Assembly: GCF_903469665.1 (NCBI RefSeq)
Contig: NZ_CAGKLC010000009.1
Coordinates: 1 to 64,000 of the forward strand
Reading direction: 5' to 3'
Source of the DNA: Flavobacterium sp. UGB4466
GTDB lineage: Bacteria > Bacteroidota > Bacteroidia > Flavobacteriales > Flavobacteriaceae
Length of the DNA stretch: 64,000 bases
Below, one piece after another: positions 1-29,088 of this stretch. Within the stretch, counting starts at the first letter, position 1, and every line of letters begins with the position of its first letter. Position numbers and translations under genes: made by a program. The notes beneath the pieces were generated by a model that was given only the letters and a program-made list of their open reading frames with translations, ran no database searches and had not been told where the DNA came from.

Positions 1-206
1 CCCTCTAGATTTGAATACAATACGTATAGAATAGACAACATCTTTAGATGTTGGAACATATATTAACAATCAAAATGGCTTTAGCCGAATAACCCAATGA
101 ATCCTATTTTAAATTTAAAATGATAAAATTGCCTCCAAATTTATCTGGCGGACACATAAGATTACATCATAAAAGGCTTTAGCCAAATAAACAATCCTCT
201 TAAGAA
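1..206. other. Gene-free window edge with small repeats
   Basis: No convincing coding region. It holds a small perfect hairpin (36-53, arms CAACATCT/AGATGTTG) and two copies of GGCTTTAGCC (77-86 and 175-184) whose downstream flanks are also alike (AATAA, then an AAT..TCCT-like stretch). A short open frame reads to a stop at 64-66 but has no recognisable family signature. Confidence 0.5.
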
Positions 207-992
207 ATGAAAAAAGAACTGCATATTTTCTTTACCTGTTTAATGTTTTACACCAGAATCCCGTGTCCTAAAAACATCAATCATGATCCTGACTATTTAA
301 ATAAGGCAACACGCTACTTCCCTTTCATTGGCTGGATTGTTGGGAGTATTTCCTTTCTGGCTTTTTATCTTTTCTCGCTTTTTCTATCTATTGAAACCGC
401 AGTACTTTTGGCTATTATCGCCTCAATTTTAACCACGGGAGCTTTTCATGAAGACGGTTTTGCCGATGTCTGTGATGGTTTTGGAGGTGGCTGGACCAAA
501 GAAAAAATTCTGCTTATCATGAAAGACAGTGCGATTGGAGCCTACGGAGCGATCGGTTTGGTTTTACTATTTCTATTAAAATTCAAACTGCTTTCAGAAT
601 CCATTTCACTTTTTACCACTAACATTTTTCTAATTTTCCTTTTGTTTATTTCGGCCCATTCCTTAAGTCGTCTCGCAGCAATATCTATTATTTTTACTCA
701 CGAATACTCCCGCGATGATGCGACGAGTAAAAGCAAACCTATCGCTAAGAAACACAGTTGGAAAGAAATTACAGGTTCGTTCTTCTTCGGACTAATTCCA
801 TTATTGGCATTTTCATTTTTTCAATCTGAATTTCTTTTGGCAATTATTCCGGTATTCATCATGCGTTATTTTTTAGCCCGCTATTTCCAAAAATGGATTG
901 ATGGTTATACGGGCGACTGTCTGGGAGCAACGCAACAGGTTTGTGAAGTTATTTACTATTTGAGCATTCTTTTGATATGGAAATTTATCTAG
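207..992 (+). CDS. cobS: Adenosylcobinamide-GDP ribazoletransferase (cobalamin-5'-phosphate synthase)
   Basis: Joins adenosylcobinamide-GDP to alpha-ribazole (or its phosphate), the final assembly step of the cobalamin nucleotide loop, in the inner membrane. The 261-aa length is normal for CobS. Seen in the sequence: FYTRIPCP near the N-terminus, the acidic HEDGFADVCDG motif at 81-91 that binds Mg2+ in the family, MKDSAIGAYG at 105-114, and several hydrophobic membrane segments. The 3' end overlaps the next gene (cobC) by 16 nt, so the two are translationally linked. Family assignment is secure. Earlier pathway genes (cobU, cobT) are presumably outside the window. Confidence 0.96.
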   Translation: MKKELHIFFTCLMFYTRIPCPKNINHDPDYLNKATRYFPFIGWIVGSISFLAFYLFSLFLSIETAVLLAIIASILTTGAFHEDGFADVCDGFGGGWTKEKILLIMKDSAIGAYGAIGLVLLFLLKFKLLSESISLFTTNIFLIFLLFISAHSLSRLAAISIIFTHEYSRDDATSKSKPIAKKHSWKEITGSFFFGLIPLLAFSFFQSEFLLAIIPVFIMRYFLARYFQKWIDGYTGDCLGATQQVCEVIYYLSILLIWKFI

Positions 993-1510
993 TTCGTCAT
1001 ACCGAAACAACCTGCGCAAAAGGAATCTGCTACGGTCAGACTGATGTAGATTTGGCTATTCCATTCGAGGAAACCTTTAAGGATATTGTCTCGCAATTAC
1101 CTTCTGAGGCCCTACTCTTTTCAAGCCCATTGAAGCGTTGTACCCTACTGGCCCAATACATCCAAAATACTGTAAAACCCGTTTCCTTTGTTATGGATGA
1201 TCGTCTGATGGAAATGAATTTTGGCGATTGGGAATTGAAAAACTGGGATGCAATTCCTGCGGAAGAACTTAATCCCTGGATGGAAGATTTTGTCACCACG
1301 CAAGTCCCAAACGGCGAATCTTTTACAACACTTCACGAAAGAGTGGGTGCGTTTTTACAGGATTACGTTTTCAATCAAACTGCTCCTGTAGTCATTGTCT
1401 CACATGCAGGTGTGATCAGAAGTATTTTATGTCATCAGTCCGGATTGCCTTTAAAAGACGCTTTTACCAATAAAGTCGCATTCGGACAGGTTATTAAAAT
1501 AGTGAATTAA
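977..1510 (+). CDS. cobC: Alpha-ribazole phosphatase, histidine phosphatase family
   Basis: Removes the phosphate from alpha-ribazole-5'-phosphate (or adenosylcobalamin-5'-phosphate) in nucleotide-loop assembly. The 177-aa protein has the phosphoglycerate-mutase-like active site: LVRHTE at 5-10 with nucleophile His8, Arg54 in SSPLKR, Glu79 and His143 in SHAGVIRS. It starts inside cobS with a 16-nt overlap, which supports a cobalamin role rather than a generic phosphatase. The exact substrate is inferred from this neighbourhood. Confidence 0.92.
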   Translation: MEIYLVRHTETTCAKGICYGQTDVDLAIPFEETFKDIVSQLPSEALLFSSPLKRCTLLAQYIQNTVKPVSFVMDDRLMEMNFGDWELKNWDAIPAEELNPWMEDFVTTQVPNGESFTTLHERVGAFLQDYVFNQTAPVVIVSHAGVIRSILCHQSGLPLKDAFTNKVAFGQVIKIVN

Positions 1511-1551
1511 ATGATCATTTGTTCAGAATCCCTCTCTAAAACGAAAACAAA

Positions 1552-1584
1552 TTTGAAAATTCAATAATTTTAACTTTATCTTTG
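1552..1584 (+). promoter_or_regulatory. Bacteroidota promoter of the riboswitch-btuB transcript
   Basis: TTTG at 1552-1555 and TATCTTTG at 1577-1584, spacer 21 nt, match the Bacteroidota -33/-7 pattern. Transcription would begin about 7 nt downstream, just before the riboswitch aptamer. Confidence 0.65.
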
Positions 1585-1592
1585 CAGAAAAT

Positions 1593-1785
1593 TAAGGTTG
1601 TGTTCATTCATACACATTAAAAGGGAATCAAGTAATAAATCTTGAGCTGTACCCGCAACTGTAAGCTTTGTTCTGAAAAGAATGCTTGTTGTTAACTACA
1701 AAACCACTGTTCGCTCTGACGAATGGGAAGGTAAACAACAAGACGCAAGCCAGGAGACCTGCCTTTGTAATCAATATCGAGCTCT
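1593..1785 (+). promoter_or_regulatory. Cobalamin riboswitch
   Basis: The conserved B12-aptamer landmarks occur in order: GGGAA at about 1623, GAGCTGTACCCGCAACTGTA near 1645-1664, GACGAATGGGAAGG near 1719-1732, and the B12 box GCCAGGAGACCTGCC at 1749-1763. It lies 45 nt upstream of the btuB start codon and should reduce btuB expression when adenosylcobalamin binds. No strong terminator follows the B12 box, so control is more likely at translation initiation; this is inferred. Confidence 0.93.
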
Positions 1786-1807
1786 CGGGAAAAAGAGTGT
1801 AGAAATT

Positions 1808-3661
1808 ATGACTTTAAAAAAACTTTTTGCTCTTTGTTTCTTATTGTTGTGCCAGATTACCGTGGCGCAGAGCGATTCTATTACGAAACTTAAAACAGTA
1901 GTCGTTTCTGACGCTAATCTTAAAAAATACTCCAATTCACAATCGGTTTTAAAACTAAATGACTCTGTTATTGGCAAAAATGAAGCCTTATTAACGGATT
2001 TGTTAAACTTTAATTCGACCATTTATTTTAAAGAGTACGGCCGCGGAATGCTTTCTACAGTTGCTTTTAGAGGTACAACATCATCGCAAACGGCTGTAAT
2101 CTGGAACGGAATCAACATTAATTCCCAAATGAACGGAAGTACTGATTTTAATACCATTTCCGGATCCGATTATAATTCTATTAGTGTAAAAGCAGGAGGA
2201 GGAAGTGTTATTTACGGCAGCGGAGCCGTTGGAGGAACCGTGCACTTGAATACGGATCTCGCTTTTTACAATAAATTTGAAAACAGTTTAAGATTGGATT
2301 ACGGAAGTTTCAATACTATCGGGATTAATTATAAAACAAGTATCTCCAATAAAAAATGGAGTACTCAAATTGGTTTTTCCAAAAACAGTTCTACAAACGA
2401 TTATAAATATCTGAACCAATACAACTGGAAAGGCGAACAGCGTTGGAATCAAAACGGTCAGTATGATGTTATTACCCTAAGTGCTAATGCAGGATATAAA
2501 ATCGATGCCAAAAACAGTTTAAAGCTATATACCCAAACTTCAAACACCGACAGAAATACTTCATTGGTTTCGGAATCTGAAACTAAAAGCAAATATGTTA
2601 ATGGCTTTAATCGGAACTTATTAGAGTATGATGGTGATTTTGGCAGATTCAAAACCAATTTCAAAACAGCCTATATTTTTGAGAATTATAAATATTATGC
2701 CGACAATTCCAGCAATATTTATACCTACGGAAAAACAGAAAGCCTGACTACAAAAGCCGATTTAGGATATCAGTTATTAGAATCGCTGCAAGTAAATGGT
2801 ATTCTGGACTACAACCGAACTAAAGGATACGGAAGTGGTTTTGGTGATAATGTTAGAGAAATAAGTTCTGCGGCTTTACTTATAAAACAAGAGGTTTCTC
2901 CAAACTGGAAAAACGAATTTGGGGTTCGTAAAGAATTTACAGACAATTATAAATCTCCGGTACTATTCTCGGCAGGCTCTTCTTATCAGTTTGGAAAACT
3001 GTACAATTTAAAATTGAATGTATCCCGTAATTTCCGAATTCCAACTTTCAATGATTTGTACTGGGAACAAGGCGGAAATCCTAATTTAAAACCGGAGAGT
3101 TCTTATCAGGCCGAAATTGGAAACGTTTTCACCATTCAGAACTTCTCTTTGACTCAGACTTTTTATTATATCAAAATAAAAGATTTATTGCAGTGGGTCC
3201 CGGGAGCTAATGGTATCTGGTCACCGCAAAACACAGACAAAGTTAATAGTTACGGCGCCGAAACACTATTGAGTTGGAAAAAGAGTTTTGGCAAAAACAA
3301 CCTGACTGCAAATGCGACGTATGCCTATTCAATTTCAGAAAATGTAGAAACCAAAAAGCAATTGTTTTTTGTTCCTTTTCATAAAGTAACCGCTGCCATC
3401 GCTTACTCAAGAAATAACCTATCAGCCCATTATCAATTTCTTTATAATGGCTTTGTGTACACACAAGCTGACAATGACCCCGAAAAAATCGTATCGGCTT
3501 ACACCGTTTCTAATATTGGTGTAGACTACGATTTTAAATTTTTATCTTCTTTCAAAGTAGGTTTTCAGGTTTTGAATGTTTGGAATACCTTCTATCAAAG
3601 TCTGGAATACCGACCAATGCCCGGAAGAAATTATAACCTGTACTTAAACTTTAAATTTTAA
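1808..3661 (+). CDS. btuB: TonB-dependent cobalamin receptor, BtuB-like
   Basis: Outer-membrane receptor that imports cobalamin or cobinamide with energy from TonB-ExbBD. The 617-aa product has a signal peptide (cleavage near residue 20-21, before SDS), a plug domain at about 45-150 with the typical VAFRGTTSSQTAVIWNG and GSGAVGGTVHL motifs, then a beta-barrel ending in an aromatic residue. Its specificity follows from the upstream cobalamin riboswitch and the cobS/cobC neighbours. The open frame extends upstream to 1682, but that lies inside the riboswitch; the ATG at 1808 precedes a proper signal peptide. The next gene begins 4 nt after the stop. Confidence 0.92.
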   Translation: MTLKKLFALCFLLLCQITVAQSDSITKLKTVVVSDANLKKYSNSQSVLKLNDSVIGKNEALLTDLLNFNSTIYFKEYGRGMLSTVAFRGTTSSQTAVIWNGININSQMNGSTDFNTISGSDYNSISVKAGGGSVIYGSGAVGGTVHLNTDLAFYNKFENSLRLDYGSFNTIGINYKTSISNKKWSTQIGFSKNSSTNDYKYLNQYNWKGEQRWNQNGQYDVITLSANAGYKIDAKNSLKLYTQTSNTDRNTSLVSESETKSKYVNGFNRNLLEYDGDFGRFKTNFKTAYIFENYKYYADNSSNIYTYGKTESLTTKADLGYQLLESLQVNGILDYNRTKGYGSGFGDNVREISSAALLIKQEVSPNWKNEFGVRKEFTDNYKSPVLFSAGSSYQFGKLYNLKLNVSRNFRIPTFNDLYWEQGGNPNLKPESSYQAEIGNVFTIQNFSLTQTFYYIKIKDLLQWVPGANGIWSPQNTDKVNSYGAETLLSWKKSFGKNNLTANATYAYSISENVETKKQLFFVPFHKVTAAIAYSRNNLSAHYQFLYNGFVYTQADNDPEKIVSAYTVSNIGVDYDFKFLSSFKVGFQVLNVWNTFYQSLEYRPMPGRNYNLYLNFKF

Positions 3662-3665
3662 AATA

Positions 3666-4718
3666 ATGAAACTAACTAGATTATTCTTACTAGCATTAAG
3701 CGCATCGCTTTTTGTTTCTTGCTCTAATGACGACTCTGATGGACCTAAAGGAGTTTATGATAATGGCGTTTTCATCTTAAATGAAGGAAACTTTACTGAC
3801 GGTGGTTCCGTTTCTTTCACATCTGACGATTTAAATACTTTCACGAAAGATGTTTACAAAACTGTAAATACGAGCGATTTCGTTGGAAAATATCTTCAAA
3901 ACATCTTTTTTGACGGAGACAAGGCTTATATTATTGCCGGTGGTTCAAATGTTATTAATGTAGTAGACCGCTATAGCTTTAAGCTGATTGCAAAAATTGA
4001 CACCGGACTTGCTAATCCTCGCTATGGTGTTGTTAAGGATGGTAAAGCTTATGTAACTAATGCTAATACCTATCCTAGCTACACTGACCCGGAAAAAAAC
4101 CCTAACGCCAATATTGACGATTATGTTGCCGTAATTAATCTGAGTACAAATACTGTTGAATCTAAAATCGAATTGAAAGGTACAGGAAACAGAATTGTGT
4201 TAGATAATGGAAAACTATACATCACTGAGCCAAATAACAGCGACAAGTTGTTGGTGGTAAACATTACAACCAAAACAGTAGAAACTGTTACTATTGGTTC
4301 AGATGCAGATTCTATTGAAGAAGAAAACGGAGTTCTTTTTATCCTTAGAAAACCTTACGGTGCTGCCGGAGAAATTGTAAAAGTAAAAATTTCAGACAAA
4401 TCTGTTTCCAAAATTGCTTTGCCTGCTAATTTAGGAAATGCTGGTCAATTAGATATTGAAGGTGGTAAGATTTATTATACTGCTTCAAGTTCTGTTTATG
4501 TTATGAATACTACTGCTACAACAGCTTCTACTACACCAATCTTAACTTCTCCTGTAGGTTATTTATACGGATTTGCAGTAAACGATAATCGTATATATCT
4601 TGCTGACGGAGGTGATTTTAAATCAAACAGCAAAGCTTACATCTACAATTTAAGCGGAACATTACAAAAAGAATTAACAGTTGGTGTAGGACCAAACGGT
4701 TTTTATTTCAATGATTAA
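3666..4718 (+). CDS. YncE-like beta-propeller surface lipoprotein, BtuG-like candidate
   Basis: A 350-aa lipoprotein with signal peptide and lipobox LFVSC (Cys19), followed by SNDDSDG, an acidic stretch like the surface-export signals of Bacteroidota lipoproteins. The rest is beta-rich with repeated blades (GDKAYII, DGKAYVTN, NGKLYIT, GGKIYYT, DNRIYLA), as in YVTN/YncE propellers. It follows btuB by only 4 nt, so it shares the riboswitch transcript. In Bacteroides thetaiotaomicron, BtuG is a surface propeller lipoprotein that captures B12 and hands it to BtuB; this gene is a good positional and structural candidate for that role. Direct homology to BtuG is inferred, not shown. Confidence 0.8.
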   Translation: MKLTRLFLLALSASLFVSCSNDDSDGPKGVYDNGVFILNEGNFTDGGSVSFTSDDLNTFTKDVYKTVNTSDFVGKYLQNIFFDGDKAYIIAGGSNVINVVDRYSFKLIAKIDTGLANPRYGVVKDGKAYVTNANTYPSYTDPEKNPNANIDDYVAVINLSTNTVESKIELKGTGNRIVLDNGKLYITEPNNSDKLLVVNITTKTVETVTIGSDADSIEEENGVLFILRKPYGAAGEIVKVKISDKSVSKIALPANLGNAGQLDIEGGKIYYTASSSVYVMNTTATTASTTPILTSPVGYLYGFAVNDNRIYLADGGDFKSNSKAYIYNLSGTLQKELTVGVGPNGFYFND

Positions 4719-4748
4719 TTCCAGTAATTCGTTTGGATTATGACATAA

Positions 4749-4778
4749 AAAAGGCTTTCATTTCTGAAAGCCTTTTTT
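4749..4778. terminator. Bidirectional rho-independent terminator
   Basis: Hairpin AAGGCTTTCA-TTTC-TGAAAGCCTT with A-rich 5' and T-rich 3' flanks between two convergent genes. It can serve both strands. Confidence 0.9.
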
Positions 4779-4779
4779 A

Positions 4780-6252
4780 TTATTTCAATGCTCGTAAAAG
4801 TCCTTCCGGAGCTTTATCAATATACATTTGATTTTTAATTCCGTCCATTGCTTTAGCATCTGTAAACGCTTTCAATACTACCCCACTGTCGTCTCCTGCT
4901 TTTTTCGCACTGATTCCTGTTATTTGAGATATTGCTACACTCAGTAACGGTTCATTTGGATCTCCCAGAACTCCTAAGTTTGTAATGCGCTCTAATTTTT
5001 CATACGTTGGTTTCAAACCGTCTGTGTATTCTCCAAAATCAGATGCATTTACAATTTTTAAAACCAAAGGCTGCATCGCATACTTATGATTTGGATTACG
5101 GTTCGTTTTTCCAAAAGTTGGAGAATCGTATAAGGTTACTGATCCTACATTTTTACCAACAGTAGTCTCTCCTACCTGAACTACAGAAATATAAGGCACC
5201 AAACCGTTTATAACCAATTCACTTGCTGATGCTGTACCACTTGTGGTTAAAATATAAACTTTAGTCAGGTTCAGGCTGTTAATCGCAACACCGTCCATTT
5301 TATCTACAAATTTATTCAGCACCGACTCAGGATCTTCACTTTGATAATATTCGTTGATTTTGGCATTCCATTTCTCTTTCGAAAAAACTTTCCCGGTAAA
5401 CTGTCCGGTAATCATACTGGCCAAACGTGTTGAAGTTTGTATCGAGCCTCCTCCGTTATATCTCAAATCTAAAACCAAATCCGTAACCCCCTGCGCTTTT
5501 AATTCTCCAAAAGCCGCATTAAGCTGCGCATCATAATTGGCATAAAAACCATTGTACATCAAATAACCGATTTTGCGACCTCCGGATGTAATCACTTTAT
5601 TGATAAAAACAGGATTTTCATCTAAAGTTGTTTTTACTAATACAACTGTTTTTCCATTACCATCAAAACCGGTACCGTTAAAAGTAGCCATATTCAGGGT
5701 ATAACTATCCGCTGCCAATAGCGACTGATAATTTGAAACCGTCAAAGAAGTTCCGTTAATCCCTGTAAAAAGATCCCCTCTCTTGATCTCTTTTTTAGAA
5801 GCATCAGAATTAGGTATAATATAACGTACGTAACCCACTAAATCAGTAGTACTTCCCGGTTTGTAACTAAGCCTGAAATCCATACCGTTATTTTTTGAAG
5901 TCCCCTGAAGTTCCTGTTCCAAAACCGTATAATCGTCAACAATCCAGCTAAAACGATCAATTGCCTGACCTTTTGGAAATTTACTTATGGGTTTATTCAA
6001 TAAATCCTGAAATAAATCCTGCGGTTTAGAATATCCTCTCAAAAATGCATTTAATGCTTCCTGATTGCTAAAACGGTCATCCGCCAAAGTAGGAACATCA
6101 GCTTGCCATAAATAAAACTGATTCAGTCCTTTCCATACAAAATCATTAACCTGCAATGAGGCCGGAGCCGCAACATCATCCTGATCTTCACAAGATTGCA
6201 AAGAAAAAGCAAGTAAAAATAATAACAGTACACTTCTTAATATTGTCTTCAT
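4780..6252 (-). CDS. S41 family C-terminal processing peptidase, lipoprotein
   Basis: A 490-aa periplasmic or surface serine protease of the Ctp/tricorn-like S41 family. It has a lipoprotein signal (LQSC, Cys21), a PDZ-like region at about 130-210, and a catalytic domain with LDLRYNGGGS at 261-270, the nucleophile Ser342 in TASASE and the general-base Lys367 in TTVGK. The 25-residue Ser-Lys spacing is that of known Ctp enzymes. It is transcribed away from the ECF sigma operon across a 162-bp gap. The substrate is unknown. Confidence 0.9.
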   Translation of the reverse strand: MKTILRSVLLLFLLAFSLQSCEDQDDVAAPASLQVNDFVWKGLNQFYLWQADVPTLADDRFSNQEALNAFLRGYSKPQDLFQDLLNKPISKFPKGQAIDRFSWIVDDYTVLEQELQGTSKNNGMDFRLSYKPGSTTDLVGYVRYIIPNSDASKKEIKRGDLFTGINGTSLTVSNYQSLLAADSYTLNMATFNGTGFDGNGKTVVLVKTTLDENPVFINKVITSGGRKIGYLMYNGFYANYDAQLNAAFGELKAQGVTDLVLDLRYNGGGSIQTSTRLASMITGQFTGKVFSKEKWNAKINEYYQSEDPESVLNKFVDKMDGVAINSLNLTKVYILTTSGTASASELVINGLVPYISVVQVGETTVGKNVGSVTLYDSPTFGKTNRNPNHKYAMQPLVLKIVNASDFGEYTDGLKPTYEKLERITNLGVLGDPNEPLLSVAISQITGISAKKAGDDSGVVLKAFTDAKAMDGIKNQMYIDKAPEGLLRALK

Positions 6253-6414
6253 ATAGTAAATATCTATCTAGTAGTAACGTAAAAATACTATCTTTAGTTT
6301 TAACTCTAAGAGTTTTATTGCTTTTTTTATTGCAAAAAAAATTAATCCCCCGTGTAACAAAAATAATAGTGTCTCGTCTTCACTATATAAGCTAACGAAT
6401 AACCAACCAATTTT

Positions 6415-6924
6415 ATGAATCAGAATGTGTTTATAGAATTAATAAATCCTTTTAAAGACAAAGTTTTTCGTCTGGCAAAAAGATTGTTAACCAGCACCGA
6501 AGAGGCTGAAGATGCCACTCAGGAAGTTATGGTAAAGTTATGGAACAAAAAAGACACTCTGGATTCTTACAATAGTGTTGAAGCTGTTGCAATGACAATG
6601 ACCAAGAATTATTGTCTGGATCAGTTGAAATCGAAAAGGGCCGGGAATCTCAAAATCGTTCACAACAATTATACGGACCGGGAACCTCAACTGGACAAGA
6701 AACTGGAGGATTCGAATAGTTTAGAATGGGTTGAAAAAATTATAAGCCAATTACCCGAACAATTACAAATATTAATTCAATTGCGGGATGTAGAACAATA
6801 TGAATTTGACGAGATTGCAAAAATTGTCAATATGAATGAAACGGCTATACGCGTAGCCCTTTCAAGAGCGAGAAAAAAAATAAGAGAATCAATGGTTAAT
6901 ACACACAGTTATGGAATTCAATAA
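6415..6924 (+). CDS. ECF-type RNA polymerase sigma factor
   Basis: 169-aa sigma-70-family factor with region 2 at about 10-75 (RLAKRLLTSTEEAEDATQEVMVK is only partly needed to recognise it: EDATQEV is typical) and region 4 at about 110-160 with YEFDEIAKIVNMNETAIRV, a helix-turn-helix that reads the -35 element. No region 3, as in ECF factors. It overlaps the next gene by 14 nt, which suggests co-translation with its likely membrane regulator. The target promoters are not known. Confidence 0.93.
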   Translation: MNQNVFIELINPFKDKVFRLAKRLLTSTEEAEDATQEVMVKLWNKKDTLDSYNSVEAVAMTMTKNYCLDQLKSKRAGNLKIVHNNYTDREPQLDKKLEDSNSLEWVEKIISQLPEQLQILIQLRDVEQYEFDEIAKIVNMNETAIRVALSRARKKIRESMVNTHSYGIQ

Positions 6925-7369
6925 AATAGAAAATATACTAGAAAAATACTTTCAGGGAGAAACCACGATTGCCGAAGAAAATCAATTAAAAGAATATTTT
7001 TCTTCACCGGATGTTGCGCAGCATTTGGAGCAATACAAACCAATGTTTGGTTATTTCTCTCAGGTAAAAGAACAGAAATCGACGCAGACGATCCCACTAA
7101 AAACTAAAAAACGAAATGTGGCGTGGTTATCGATTGCAGCTTCAGCTGTTGTTTTGCTGGGAATTGGAACCTATTTCTATACGAGCGAAAAAAATGCAAC
7201 TCCGGTTACAGCTCAAACAGAATTGGGAACCTATGATGATCCGGAAGAAGCACTTGCCGCAACGCAAAAAGCTTTGGCCTTATTATCAAACAATGTTAAT
7301 GTAGGTATTGAAAGTGTACAATACATTAAAGAATACGAACAATCAAAAAACAAAATTTTTAAACAGTAA
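6911..7369 (+). CDS. Single-pass membrane protein, putative anti-sigma factor
   Basis: 152 aa with a cytosolic N-terminal part (1-68), one transmembrane helix at about 70-90 (VAWLSIAASAVVLLGIGTYF) and a short periplasmic tail. It has no zinc-binding HxxxCxxC motif. The 14-nt overlap with the sigma gene and the topology fit a membrane-anchored anti-sigma factor. That role is inferred from context; the sequence itself matches no family I recognise. Confidence 0.65.
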   Translation: MEFNKIENILEKYFQGETTIAEENQLKEYFSSPDVAQHLEQYKPMFGYFSQVKEQKSTQTIPLKTKKRNVAWLSIAASAVVLLGIGTYFYTSEKNATPVTAQTELGTYDDPEEALAATQKALALLSNNVNVGIESVQYIKEYEQSKNKIFKQ

Positions 7370-7386
7370 TTTAAATCTCAATCAAA

Positions 7387-7962
7387 ATGAAATCAACGAT
7401 TCACGAATACAGAAAAAACAATAAAAAAAGCATGAGTAAAAATTTTATCATAACACTAGTTTTAGTATTCATTAGCCATGCTTTTTACGCTCAGGGAGCA
7501 TTTGACAAATTTGATGGTCAGGACGACGTAACCTCAGTAATCGTAAACAAAAAAATGTTTGATTTAATGAGTAAGGTAAAAGCTGACACTTCAGATAAAG
7601 AAACGCAGCAATACATTAATCTGATTAAAAAATTAGACTACCTAAAAGTGTTTACCACTAAAAACCCTAAAATTGAAGCTGACATGAAAGCTTCTGCAGA
7701 TAAATATATAAAAACTGCCGGTTTAGAAGAATTAATGAGAGTGAACGACAGCGGTAAAAATGTTAGAATTCTAATCAAATCAGGATCAAGCGATACGCAG
7801 GTAAAAGAATTACTAATGTACATCGACGGAGCTAAGGGCAGTGAAACGGTATTACTGTCTCTTATTGGTAACTTTGACTTAAACGAAATCTCAGTACTAA
7901 CAGATAAGATGCAGCTTCCTGGAGGTTCTGACCTAAAAAAAGCTTCTAAAGGCAAAAAATAA
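7387..7962 (+). CDS. DUF4252 domain protein, exported
   Basis: 191 aa with a signal peptide ending HAFYAQ and a DUF4252 domain over the rest (DDVTSVIVNKKMFDLM at the start of the domain). A second ATG at 7432 would give a tidier signal peptide without the 15 extra basic/polar residues; the upstream ATG lies only 17 nt after the preceding gene, so both starts are plausible. It is followed after 1 nt by a second DUF4252 gene. The function is unknown; linkage to an ECF sigma factor suggests an envelope-response role. Confidence 0.85.
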   Translation: MKSTIHEYRKNNKKSMSKNFIITLVLVFISHAFYAQGAFDKFDGQDDVTSVIVNKKMFDLMSKVKADTSDKETQQYINLIKKLDYLKVFTTKNPKIEADMKASADKYIKTAGLEELMRVNDSGKNVRILIKSGSSDTQVKELLMYIDGAKGSETVLLSLIGNFDLNEISVLTDKMQLPGGSDLKKASKGKK

Positions 7963-7963
7963 G

Positions 7964-8503
7964 ATGAAAGCAAGCGTTATTACCTCAGCCCTATTAGTTT
8001 TACTAACTTTGGTAAGTTGTAATTCTACCCCTTCATTGCAGAAGTATTTTGTTGAAAACACAGACAATAAAGATTTTATTGCACTTGACATTTCATCATC
8101 GATTCTAAATGTGGAGAAAGCGAAATTATCTGCAGAGCAAAATGAAGCTTTAAAATCGTTCGATAAAATGAATATTCTGGCTTTCAAAGAAACCTCAAAA
8201 AATCAGGCGCAATTTGAAACAGAACGCAGCAAACTGAAAGAGATCCTGAAAAATCCAAAATATCAGGAACTAATGAAGGTCGGTTCAGGTAAAGACGGCG
8301 CATCGATAAGTTATGTAGGAGCCGACGACAACATCGAAGAATTTGTGGTTTTTGCCAACAAAAAAGAAAGCGGTTTTGTAGTGGTACGTGTGTTAGGAAA
8401 AAACATGAACCCTAACAACATTATGACCTTGATGTCGGTTATGAAACAATCCAATATTAACATGGATCAACTAAAGCCTTTGCAGCAATTAATGAAACCA
8501 TAA
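7964..8503 (+). CDS. DUF4252 domain lipoprotein
   Basis: 179 aa with lipobox LTLVSC followed by NSTPSLQKYFVEN, so a lipid-anchored paralogue of the preceding DUF4252 protein. Both end in a similar stretch: NEISVLTDKM in one, NNIMTLMSVM in this one. The ATG is 1 nt after the previous stop, making this the last gene of the sigma operon before a strong terminator. Its biochemical role is unknown. Confidence 0.84.
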   Translation: MKASVITSALLVLLTLVSCNSTPSLQKYFVENTDNKDFIALDISSSILNVEKAKLSAEQNEALKSFDKMNILAFKETSKNQAQFETERSKLKEILKNPKYQELMKVGSGKDGASISYVGADDNIEEFVVFANKKESGFVVVRVLGKNMNPNNIMTLMSVMKQSNINMDQLKPLQQLMKP

Positions 8504-8528
8504 CCTCTAACTTTATAGTAAAACAAGA

Positions 8529-8556
8529 GAGCTCCGTAATCCGGAGCTTTTTTTAT
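8529..8556 (+). terminator. Rho-independent terminator of the sigma/DUF4252 operon
   Basis: AGCTCCG-TAAT-CGGAGCT-like hairpin followed by seven T residues. Two further terminators with AGCTCC stems follow at 9110 and 10466. Confidence 0.9.
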
Positions 8557-8597
8557 TTAACATTTTTAGAAGATTATACTGAATAATATCGCATGTG

Positions 8598-8632
8598 TTT
8601 GTTTTAAGATGACCCGAATTTATCTATATTTG
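8598..8632 (+). promoter_or_regulatory. Promoter of the YiaA-like gene
   Basis: TTTG at 8598-8601 and TATATTTG at 8625-8632. Transcription would start near 8638, which rules out the upstream in-frame ATG at 8609 and supports the start at 8666. Confidence 0.6.
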
Positions 8633-8665
8633 TTCATCAACCAAAACAAAATTATTAAACTAAGT

Positions 8666-9064
8666 ATGGTACAAAAAACATCGAACGCCTTTATAGCGGC
8701 ATCATGGGTAGCTCTTGGAGCAGGAACAGTTGGATTTATAGTAGGACTTGCCAGAGCCGAAATGCTCTTAAACGAAAAAGGATATTATTTCACCGTTTTA
8801 ATGTTTGGTCTTTTTGCTGTTGTCTCCTTACAAAAAAGTGTTAGAGACCGACTGGAAAAACTTCCGGTAACTGATATGTATTACGGAATCTGCTGGTTCG
8901 GAACTCTTTTATCTATTGTATTATTAATTGTGGGCCTATGGAACGCTACGATCTTACCAAGTGAAAAAGGTTTTTATGCTTTTGCTTTTTTACTGGCTCT
9001 TTTTGGAGCTATTTCGGTACAAAAAAACACGAGAGACAATATGGCGTACTCTTCAAATGAATAA
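8666..9064 (+). CDS. YiaA/YiaB family inner-membrane protein
   Basis: 132 aa with four predicted membrane helices arranged as two repeats (residues about 8-55 and 70-120), each followed by QKSVRD/QKNTRD, the hallmark of the YiaAB two-helix domain. The ATG at 8666 is chosen because the promoter's -7 box sits inside the longer reading frame. Function of the family is not established. It stands alone between two terminators. Confidence 0.85.
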   Translation: MVQKTSNAFIAASWVALGAGTVGFIVGLARAEMLLNEKGYYFTVLMFGLFAVVSLQKSVRDRLEKLPVTDMYYGICWFGTLLSIVLLIVGLWNATILPSEKGFYAFAFLLALFGAISVQKNTRDNMAYSSNE

Positions 9065-9109
9065 TATTTCAACTAGAATTAATCAAAAACAACTTCCAAA
9101 ATTAACCAC

Positions 9110-9140: not shown

Positions 9141-9314
9141 TGACCGTATTTTGTGGTTTGCACGAACATCATTTCCCGTTGTGCTACTAAAGCAATCACA
9201 ACAGACCAAATAAATCCATTTATCAAACGAAAAATACATCATTACTACCATTTATTACAAATTACAAAAAATTAACCATACATAACTTACTTTAGCGGTT
9301 TAAAATATTTTTGT

Positions 9315-10448
9315 ATGAAAAAAAATCTCCTCTTAGCATTAGTATCAGCCTTTAGCCTTAATGCACAAACCGTCTCAAATTACACGACAGATTTTCTTCA
9401 AACTGCATACGCCGTCCCATTTGGCCTTGTGTTTGATTCAACTGGAAACTTATATATTGCTAATAATGATTATAATAAAAATTTAGGAATTACCAAAATG
9501 ACTCCAAATCTGGTTCAAAGTACTTTTATTTCATTAAAAAAATTTCCTAGGCAAATAGCTCTTGATGCCAACCAAAATTTTTGGGTAATCAGTCGTACTG
9601 AAAATGGGTATAAACTTTTTTCAGGTGAAAACGAAATTACAAAAATAACCCCCGGCGATGTAATAAGTTATCCTACTTCTGCAGACATATGGGGAATTGC
9701 TATCGATGCAAGGGGAAACGTTTTTTATTCAGAAAGGACTGGGAAAATTCAAAAAATAAGTACCACAGGAGAAATTAGCACCTTTTTTTCAGATCCTGCT
9801 ACTCTTAAATCCCCATCAGGATTAGCTTTTGATAAGGCAGGAAATTTATTCGTTATTGATGAAAGTGATGGTAATAATCCCCTCAGAAAAATAAATCCTG
9901 CCGGTGTCATTACAAAAATTCCTGTAACTTTTGAAAAGACATCACAAACAATAGAAAATGGATACCTCTCTTTTGCTTCAAATGGCGACTTATACATTTC
10001 TGGAAAAACAAGTGAAAATAATTTTTCTGCAAAAATTTTTCGTTTACCTGCTGCTGATGTAAGTGGTAAGCTAATACTTTTTTACGATTTTCCTTACGGC
10101 GCCATTAATGGAATAACTATTTACAATGGAAATCTTTATGCAAGTTTATATGTAAAAAACGAAAGTAAAGTAGTAAAAATAGCACCTAAAATTCTGGGAG
10201 TTGAAAACGCAACCAAATCTATTACTAAAGAAATTATAGTCTACCCAAATCCTGCAATCGACTATTTGTCTATTGACAGTAAAAACGAAGTTGTTGAATC
10301 AATCCAATTATTCGACCTTACCGGACACCTACTTAAAAGCTACAAACCTGCTGAAGTCAAAGAGGATAAAATCGCTTTACCGGCTTTAACTTCCGGAAAT
10401 TATATTTTAAAAATTAACAATACTTCTAAAAAGATTCTAATCAATTAA
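9315..10448 (+). CDS. Secreted NHL/SMP-30-like propeller protein with T9SS sorting domain
   Basis: 377 aa: signal peptide ending LNAQ, a beta-propeller body with repeated blades such as FGLVFDSTGNLYIANN, GIAIDARGNVFYSE and GLAFDKAGNLFVID (NHL-type), and a C-terminal type A sorting domain from about residue 305 (YPNPAIDYLSI, IQLFDLTGHLL, LTSGNYILKI). That tail sends proteins through the type IX secretion system to the cell surface or medium. A TATTTTTG box ends 1 nt before the ATG, so the mRNA may be leaderless if that box is used; no -33 TTG is seen. The ligand is unknown. Confidence 0.88.
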   Translation: MKKNLLLALVSAFSLNAQTVSNYTTDFLQTAYAVPFGLVFDSTGNLYIANNDYNKNLGITKMTPNLVQSTFISLKKFPRQIALDANQNFWVISRTENGYKLFSGENEITKITPGDVISYPTSADIWGIAIDARGNVFYSERTGKIQKISTTGEISTFFSDPATLKSPSGLAFDKAGNLFVIDESDGNNPLRKINPAGVITKIPVTFEKTSQTIENGYLSFASNGDLYISGKTSENNFSAKIFRLPAADVSGKLILFYDFPYGAINGITIYNGNLYASLYVKNESKVVKIAPKILGVENATKSITKEIIVYPNPAIDYLSIDSKNEVVESIQLFDLTGHLLKSYKPAEVKEDKIALPALTSGNYILKINNTSKKILIN

Positions 10449-10465
10449 ACAACCTCCATTAAACT

Positions 10466-10497
10466 AAAAAAAGCTCCAGTTATGGAGCTTTTTTTTA
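10466..10497. terminator. Bidirectional terminator between propeller gene and carB
   Basis: AGCTCCA-GTTA-TGGAGCT with A-run before and eight T residues after, between convergent genes. Confidence 0.9.
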
Positions 10498-10510
10498 TCA
10501 GAATTTGAGA

Positions 10511-28999: not shown

Positions 29000-29010
29000 C
29001 GCAAAACCTT

Positions 29011-29088
29011 AGCCCCGATAGTAGTGAAAATCCTTTTTCTTTTTCCTTTAAAAAGAAAAAGATTGAAACGGATAGCGGGAATAAGCTC
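29011..29088. repeat. Dispersed intergenic hairpin element
   Basis: Starts AGCCCCGATAGTAGTG, has a central hairpin CTTTTTCTTTTT (29033-29044)/AAAAGAAAAAG (29051-29061), and ends GATAGCGGGAATAAGCTC. I recognise this layout as a common intergenic repeat of flavobacterial genomes. Confidence 0.65.

Follow-up and report, generated by a model that had tools for sequence, protein, structure and literature searches.

A probable BtuB-BtuG corrinoid uptake unit with an apparently mosaic btuG in Flavobacterium

Is a lipid-anchored propeller protein encoded directly behind a btuB gene in Flavobacterium a relative of the BtuG proteins of Bacteroides, or is it a propeller that evolved independently? The question is raised by a locus near the beginning of the 64,000-nucleotide (nt) stretch of Flavobacterium sp. 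UGB4466 DNA that we analyzed (contig NZ_CAGKLC010000009.1, positions 1 to 64,000; hereafter the window), which is the start of contig C9 in a genome assembled into 306 contigs (5.3 Mb in all) whose named relatives are Flavobacterium. An earlier note on this DNA had proposed that a cobalamin riboswitch, btuB, and a lipid-anchored propeller gene with 4-nt spacing form one unit, and the analysis upholds that proposal, with the RF00174 riboswitch at 1578-1780, btuB at 1808-3661, and the lipoprotein gene, btuG, at 3666-4718, all on the plus strand. The locus is very probably a corrinoid uptake unit of the Bacteroides BtuB-BtuG type in which blades 3 to 6 of the propeller were swapped by recombination. 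The riboswitch, the homology, the fold, the gene order, the export signal, a conserved pocket core, and the aromatic residue of transporter loop EL8 are all observed here.

Homology of the lipoprotein and its transporter

The btuG gene encodes a propeller lipoprotein of 350 amino acids (aa) that matches PF16819 (DUF5074) with an E value of 2.3e-14; its single NCBIfam match lies far below the cut-off. In a phmmer search of the Protein Data Bank (PDB), the nine top sequences are all of the BtuG2/BtuG3 type, 3DSM included (8p97_B, which is BtuG3, at 4.1e-15). One entry titled just "YncE family protein," 8puj_A, has letters identical to those of BtuG3, and the match to BtuG1 is weak (0.03). With a 13-row profile, BtuG2 (8bmx_D) reaches 1e-51 and BtuG1 2e-35. 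The structural comparison with BtuG that the earlier note had suggested for the 350-aa protein also came out in favor of kinship. The AlphaFold2 model, built on 44 rows, has a predicted local distance difference test score (pLDDT) of 89.2 and a predicted template modeling score (pTM) of 0.86 and consists of strands apart from a few short helical turns. The top 16 Foldseek matches of this model are all BtuG, again with 3DSM among them (8bmz_A, 9.7e-21), and VIA-align gives a Z of 36.7 for BtuG2 with cyanocobalamin (2.0 Å over 299 residues) and 33.4 for BtuG1, with 28.6 for the best protein outside the BtuG family. The window lipoprotein is thus a BtuG homologue, nearer to BtuG2 and BtuG3 than to BtuG1, and the BtuG-like reading of the earlier note is supported. 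The other origin which that note had entertained, an independently evolved and convergent propeller, is ruled out by homology in both sequence and fold (phmmer, the profile E value of 1e-51, Foldseek, and the Z of 36.7).

BtuK1 (BT_1486; 9s6c), a B12-binding Bacteroides lipoprotein of related fold, appears in the same comparisons (profile E value, 3.4e-15; Z, 28.1), which raises the possibility that the window protein is a B12 binder of the BtuK type instead of a BtuG. It is, however, a clearly poorer match than BtuG2, the window gene adjoins btuB as btuG does, and this genome has its BtuK1-like protein elsewhere: a separate member of DUF5074 that bears a type IX secretion tail and has BtuK1 as its best solved relative in the search. 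We give a BtuK assignment next to no chance of being right.

The N terminus of the window protein has a lipobox (FVS-C19) followed by SNDDSD, and the resulting CSNDDSD motif at 3720-3740 (plus strand) reads as a lipidated Cys19 with an acidic surface-export signal. A cysteine with at least two acidic residues at +3 to +6 is found in 82 of the 82 BtuGs of the set described below. The signal rules that we applied come from the accessible part of PMC5080379, where the F. johnsoniae signal is given as SDDFE, and by these rules the sequence of the window BtuG carries a Bacteroidota lipoprotein surface-export signal.

The partner gene, btuB (1808-3661), encodes a TonB-dependent corrinoid transporter of 617 aa with the domains PF07715 and PF00593 and, read by eye, a signal peptide. 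Its PDB matches are BtuB2 (6.1e-48), BtuB3 (1e-44), and BtuB1 (5.2e-20). W471 (3218-3220, plus strand) stands at the position of the EL8 aromatic, where GIWSPQN of the window aligns with KGFFSPRN of BtuB2 and KGFYSPVN of BtuB3; the aligned Tyr is position 538 of the printed BtuB3 sequence. According to the accessible text of PMC10404256, EL8 Tyr538 of BtuB3 touches bound B12, BtuB2 has Phe and BtuB1 has Trp at this place, and replacing the EL8 tip (Ser524-Leu531) with two glycines abolished growth on B12. With a plug and a barrel akin to those of BtuB1 to BtuB3 and the EL8 aromatic kept, the window BtuB is of the Bacteroides type.

Upstream, the riboswitch aptamer (1578-1780) scores 99.5 bits against RF00174 over the full model length, above the gathering threshold of 31.5 bits, and its E value of 1.1e-23 rules out a chance match. 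The mechanical open reading frame (ORF) of btuB begins within the riboswitch, at 1682; the sensible start is the ATG at 1808, 27 nt past the riboswitch end, which gives the 617-aa product. The btuB stop codon ends at 3661, leaving a 4-nt gap before the btuG start at 3666.

The same arrangement recurs among relatives. Counted at an E value of 1e-3 and with the window's own genome included, relatives of the window protein occur in 88 of the 296 genomes searched for the phylum and in 82 of the 149 searched for the genus, although some of the weaker matches may be only BtuG1-like paralogues or other propellers. A scan of named genomes, from which we kept the best 80 of at least 339 relatives (79 titled Flavobacterium and one [Flexibacter], hence close relatives), placed btuB directly 5' of btuG with a B12 box in all 80 loci, at an estimated gap of 3 to 25 nt. 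cobC lies upstream in 76 of them, and two of the other four (L113 and L121) are too near a contig end to judge. From the 88 matching genomes of the phylum we hand-picked 20 btuG loci and fetched the stretch ahead of btuG, a sample that covers genomes matching BtuG and is uninformative on genomes without it. The riboswitch is present in 20 of 20, and btuB adjoins btuG in 19. The exception, L183 (genome G037), has the riboswitch directly before the btuG homologue and no btuB within the 6.7 kb fetched; in L196 the riboswitch lies about 1 kb ahead of btuB. The BtuB-BtuG unit is old in the phylum, and a Flavobacterium member is expected, since the sampled loci show the unit across the phylum. The earlier note had held that such a locus would widen the known range of BtuG. 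It does so only modestly. A 2018 survey of 313 human-gut genomes described BtuG as exclusive to Bacteroidetes (accessible text of PMC6143338). With the terms used, the open PubMed Central (PMC) text gave no report of BtuG in Flavobacterium or of BtuG mosaicism; one article that mentions both names has BtuG3 of B. thetaiotaomicron in the legend of a figure.

Divergence of the middle of btuG

For comparison there is a sister genome, G245, whose locus we call L146 (L numbers denote loci of relatives). In 100-nt bins over positions 200-9100, the window and L146 are 80 to 100% identical except at 4000-4600, where identity falls to 52 to 72%. Nucleotide identity is 93% in btuB, 90% in the N-terminal part of btuG, 58% in its middle, and 83 to 89%, depending on the cut, in its C-terminal part. 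The divergent segment, at 4080-4600 (about 520 nt, plus strand), corresponds to residues of about 139 to 312, that is, to blades 3 to 6. Synonymous divergence (dS) between the two loci comes to 0.36 for btuB and 0.40 for the N-terminal part of btuG; for the middle no value could be obtained (the program returned -1, which we take as saturation), so silent and coding sites seem to have changed together. A paralogue of the BtuG1 type is 99% identical between the two genomes.

Among 82 sequences (the window, the 80 named loci, and L146) we found 22 btuB mutual-nearest pairs, 20 of which have btuB identities of at least 85%. The btuG middle lies at least 15 points below btuB in 4 of these 20 pairs, the N-terminal part in none, and the C-terminal part in 2; among the 19 pairs having the genes concerned, cobC does so in 1 and cobS in none. 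Across 38 non-independent pairs at 90% or above, comparison windows below 72% make up 71 of 1,216 in btuG, 0 of 2,052 in btuB, 5 of 770 in cobS, and 2 of 525 in cobC.

Trees point the same way for the window. The btuB tree, from the test of which L122 and L134 were left out, joins the window with L146, L060, and L061 (support, 99) and recovers window plus L146, L067 plus L100, and L111 plus L125 with a support of 100 each. The tree of the middle segment rejects these three pairs, with log-likelihood drops of 129 (P = 4e-4), 158, and 233, respectively. Common descent of the middle was not rejected for L122 plus L134 or for the triple L082/L085/L106 (P = 0.42 each); both had resembled exchange by identity and were left uncounted after the clade tests. 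The approximately unbiased (AU) tests of the middle thus reject common descent in three of five groups, the window's included, and as the five groups were picked with the identities already in view, the P values cannot be read as if the test had been blind. The N-terminal part of btuG either recovers the four pairs or leaves them unrejected, and so do both parts for three control pairs.

Could the middle simply have evolved fast under positive selection, with no exchange? The pocket-side loops do vary strongly, at 34 to 40 of 69 positions in four pairs, and the trees leave common descent unrejected in two of the five groups. Against this stand the uncomputable dS of the middle beside a btuB value of 0.36 in the window and its sister, the rejection of sister descent in the other three groups while the N-terminal part keeps the four pairs tested on it together or leaves them unrejected, and the close matches of two middles outside their btuB groups: the middle of L100 is 88% identical to that of L103, and the middle of L111 is 86% identical to that of L070, yet btuB groups L100 and L111 with L067 and L125. 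We consider fast evolution alone quite unlikely. An assembly chimera was also judged unlikely as the source of the divergent segment; the frame is intact, both flanks match the sister, and two more lineages have the same pattern.

We conclude from these comparisons that recombination between lineages of flavobacteria has exchanged blades 3 to 6 of BtuG and left in place both the N-terminal part (anchor, linker, and blades 1 and 2) and the C-terminal end. L103 and L070 look like relatives of the donors of the L100 and L111 middles. The window middle is closest to that of L079, at 72%, and its donor would therefore be unsampled. Horizontal transfer has been proposed for btuH and btuB in gut Bacteroidetes (accessible part of PMC8941943); mosaicism of btuG, whose middle seems to behave as an exchangeable module, is what we regard as new.

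What the exchange might be for can be asked of the positions that differ. In the window pair, these are 38 of 69 in pocket-side loops, 33 of 84 in strands, and 10 of 21 in outward loops; in three other pairs, L122/L134 included, the ranges are 34 to 40, 16 to 37, and 2 to 5 of the same totals, the faces having been assigned by us from the strands and from BtuG2 residues. Blades 3 to 6 may tentatively be seen as a specificity cassette that re-tunes which corrinoids are captured, or their hand-over to BtuB, with the fit of the lid preserved. The swapped half would form the wall of the pocket next to the upper ligand as well as the edge at which the lid opens, and the anchor, the linker, blades 1 and 2, and the C-terminal blade would stay fixed. 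An alternative that we hold equally tentatively is that phages or antibacterial toxins have BtuG as their receptor and that evading them, not corrinoid specificity, drives the exchange. Surface receptors are often targeted, the segment takes in the edge that faces away from the hinge (according to the accessible text of PMC10404256, the opening is widest at D236 of BtuG2), and between the window and its sister the contrast of faces is slight, outward loops differing almost as often as pocket-side loops. The low outward counts of the other three pairs speak against such escape, as far as our assignment of faces holds.

The corrinoid pocket and a proposed uptake route

The pocket mapping covers 56 rows, made up of the window, 43 of the 80 named relatives, and 12 loci from other genomes, mostly more distant. 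The BtuG2 numbering used (W194, D236, Y239, P249, K266, W272, S274, Y316, Y335, N54, and T64) fits the letters of the sequence. In the pocket region the window BtuG retains N39, E40, G41, N68, and Y301. The corresponding BtuG2 residues are kept nearly throughout: N54 in 55 of 56 rows, E55, G56, and N84 in all 56, and Y316 in 55. At the position of Y335 there is F in 44 rows and Y in 12. Of these, N54, E55, G56, and N84 may be among the residues of blades 1 to 4 that make the 13 hydrogen bonds to the corrin side chains.

Several observations weigh against a BtuG2-like corrinoid receptor and deserve to be set out together. W194 of BtuG2 is replaced by P189 in the window, and no row has Trp there (P in 37, A in 8, S in 7, and others in 4). 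The window also lacks the β5A plier loop with Y239, where 53 of the 56 rows have a gap. W272 corresponds to G257 in the window and is Trp in none of the 56 rows. The residues that close the upper-ligand side in the BtuG2 subtype are thus lacking, and without them the affinity and upper-ligand preference of the window BtuG may differ. The structural-alignment identity to BtuG2 is just 23%, which makes the alignment of any single loop uncertain. On the transporter side, TIGR01779, the enterobacterial BtuB equivalog, gives 81.1 bits (6.4e-23) against a curated cut-off of 599.7, and the EL8 tip reported as Ser524-Leu531 in the text of PMC10404256 disagrees with the printed BtuB3 letters (Ile 524, Leu 531), so that the exact loop numbering is uncertain and the tip cannot be placed on the window BtuB. 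The BtuG2 subtype pocket is not a requirement of BtuG, however; BtuG3 too lacks W272, with Ala in its place. The low TIGR01779 score is as expected for a distant BtuB, and that match itself would be no proof of substrate. In our reading of the alignment, one side of the pocket is retained, whereas the side that shuts over the upper ligand either stays open or has another build, a pocket without W194, W272, and the plier loop but with its core residues, which appears to be new.

The missing tryptophans and plier loop could also be taken to mean that the receptor and lipoprotein serve another ligand, a siderophore or the like, and stand under a cobalamin riboswitch by chance. Bacteroides surface lipoproteins do partner TonB transporters for other ligands: the abstract of a paper on iron describes such a case, and SusCD is another (accessible text of PMC10404256). 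Nevertheless, the nearest relatives in sequence and structure are BtuG and BtuB, the B12 box and upstream cobC recur through the best named loci in the numbers given above, and five pocket-region residues are each retained in at least 55 of the 56 rows. We regard another ligand as very improbable.

Compared with B. thetaiotaomicron BtuB2-BtuG2 (BT1953/BT1954) and BtuB3-BtuG3, then, the window unit shares riboswitch control, a btuB beside btuG, a lipoprotein with an export signal, the propeller fold with N54/E55/G56/N84/Y316, and the EL8 aromatic. It differs from them in its low BtuG identity (21 to 24% to BtuG2 and BtuG3 by structural alignment), a BtuB of 617 aa versus 693 to 713 aa in the BtuB2 and BtuB3 PDB chains, the exchange of its middle blades between lineages, and an extra loop of about 20 aa in blade 3 (residues 133 to 152; 4062-4121, plus strand), where the pLDDT dips to 77 (residues 131 to 140) and 74 (residues 141 to 150). 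The Bacteroides BtuB1-BtuG1 pair shares the fold, but BtuG1 is a BtuG-BtuH fusion; the window BtuG has no BtuH domain and is closer to BtuG2 and BtuG3.

By analogy with work on Bacteroides, a corrinoid uptake route can be proposed for the window unit in which corrinoid represses the locus and, when corrinoid is scarce, the riboswitch would permit expression of btuB and btuG. BtuG would receive its lipid anchor, reach the outer surface of the outer membrane by export, and sit there in complex with BtuB as a hinged lid. Its central cavity, facing BtuB, would bind and capture corrinoids, though the pocket of the window BtuG may close in a different way. Loop EL8 of BtuB, with W471, would displace the bound corrinoid in a hand-over to the TonB-driven channel, which would import it. 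In the cytoplasm, CobT, CobS, and CobC would complete or remodel incomplete corrinoids, a step suggested by a genome that lacks the two ring-synthesis genes tested, CbiD and CbiC.

Genomic setting and meaning of the unit

From left to right, the locus carries cobS, cobC, the riboswitch, btuB, btuG, a hairpin, and a convergent S41 peptidase gene. cobS (207-992, plus strand) encodes adenosylcobinamide-GDP ribazoletransferase (PF02654, 8e-56; NF001277, 300.7 bits, cut-off 273), and cobC (977-1510, plus strand) encodes alpha-ribazole phosphatase (TIGR03162, 173.3 bits, cut-off 162.9). Between cobC and btuB, reading by eye gives a TTG-N21-TATCTTTG element (1553-1584, plus strand), which we take to be a Bacteroidota-type promoter motif. 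A weak sigma-70-type match falls on the same element in a scan that was uninformative (13 matches versus 11.8 expected by chance). Transcription probably starts near 1593, behind this element, which is where the earlier note had begun the unit; that position suits the likely transcript, but the riboswitch begins slightly upstream of it, at 1578. The hairpin between btuG and the peptidase gene (4745-4780; -18.9 kcal/mol; z, -6.99) resembles a terminator and would close the two-gene unit. It is absent from the output of a simple terminator scan, perhaps because its T-run sits inside the stem.

Elsewhere in the window, the contig edge (1-190) has a 37-nt repeat in two copies (GGCTTTAGCCRAATAA core) ahead of cobS and aligns poorly to the sister. 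At about 9150-10500, some 1.3 kb with one ORF above 150 aa (9315-10448) is missing from the same place in the sister genome, and a Flavo-1 RNA lies at 29007-29086 (RF01705, 82 bits).

Searches for CbiD and CbiC, which gave matches in 6 and 7, respectively, of the 14 control genomes, found neither in this genome; it does have CobT, a single FecCD permease, and three matches to B12-binding domains. The organism thus probably takes up corrinoids from outside and is able to complete or remodel them. The gene ahead of cobS in the sister (L146, 685-2391) and in F. resistens (L067, 2701-4389, preceded by cobU) is a nitroreductase-CobT fusion whose nitroreductase-family domain is possibly BluB-like (lower-ligand synthesis), and CobT of the window genome (G000:C45:614-1609) lies within a similarly long open frame of 590 aa.

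The genome has three cobalamin riboswitches, in the window and on contigs C27 and C74. The C27 riboswitch precedes btuB and a lipoprotein of the BtuG1 type (8blw_B, BtuG1, 3.9e-53). The genes of this second B12 operon run in the order riboswitch, btuB, BtuG1-type lipoprotein, BtuH-type lipoprotein, and 756-aa DUF5074 protein. All four genes stand consecutively behind the riboswitch in L212 (2106-9250) and L213, and in the window genome they are split in pairs between C27 (L142, 9925-13431) and C101 (L144, 6509-10009). Both contigs end in the same GAGTGAA tandem heptamer, apparently between btuG1 and btuH, and their ends overlap exactly over 71 nt, an overlap that the repeat alone could produce. 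The 756-aa protein has a type IX secretion system (T9SS) tail, and its middle matches B12-binding BtuK1 (9s6c, 1.4e-9), which suggests a B12 binder exported by the T9SS. On C74 (L143, 2100-7605, minus strand), the riboswitch precedes lipoproteins of 429, 413, and 412 aa and a DUF4465 (BtuJ-family) protein; of the three lipoproteins, the one of 413 aa hits BtuH domains at 9.8e-34 and 7.4e-29, with those of 429 and 412 aa as its paralogues.

In the fish pathogen F. psychrophilum, a transcriptome study describes a cobalamin riboswitch upstream of an expressed "unknown TBDT" (TonB-dependent transporter), THC0290_1776, near cob genes and upregulated in fish plasma; the accessible part of the study (PMC9723704) names no lipoprotein or BtuG there. 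One F. psychrophilum genome carries a locus with btuG (L132), and we infer that its btuB is THC0290_1776.

The B12 lid, treated in print as a response to gut competition, is thus kept in flavobacteria, F. psychrophilum included, and its retention there argues that gut competition is not the sole reason for it. Flavobacterial lids without the residues said to narrow the BtuG2 cavity and hold the vitamin would offer a natural test of extreme affinity. The swapped middle segment may likewise provide ready-made chimeras for the question of whether BtuG sets corrinoid choice, and it is the exchanged blades that, in our judgment, deserve to be followed up.

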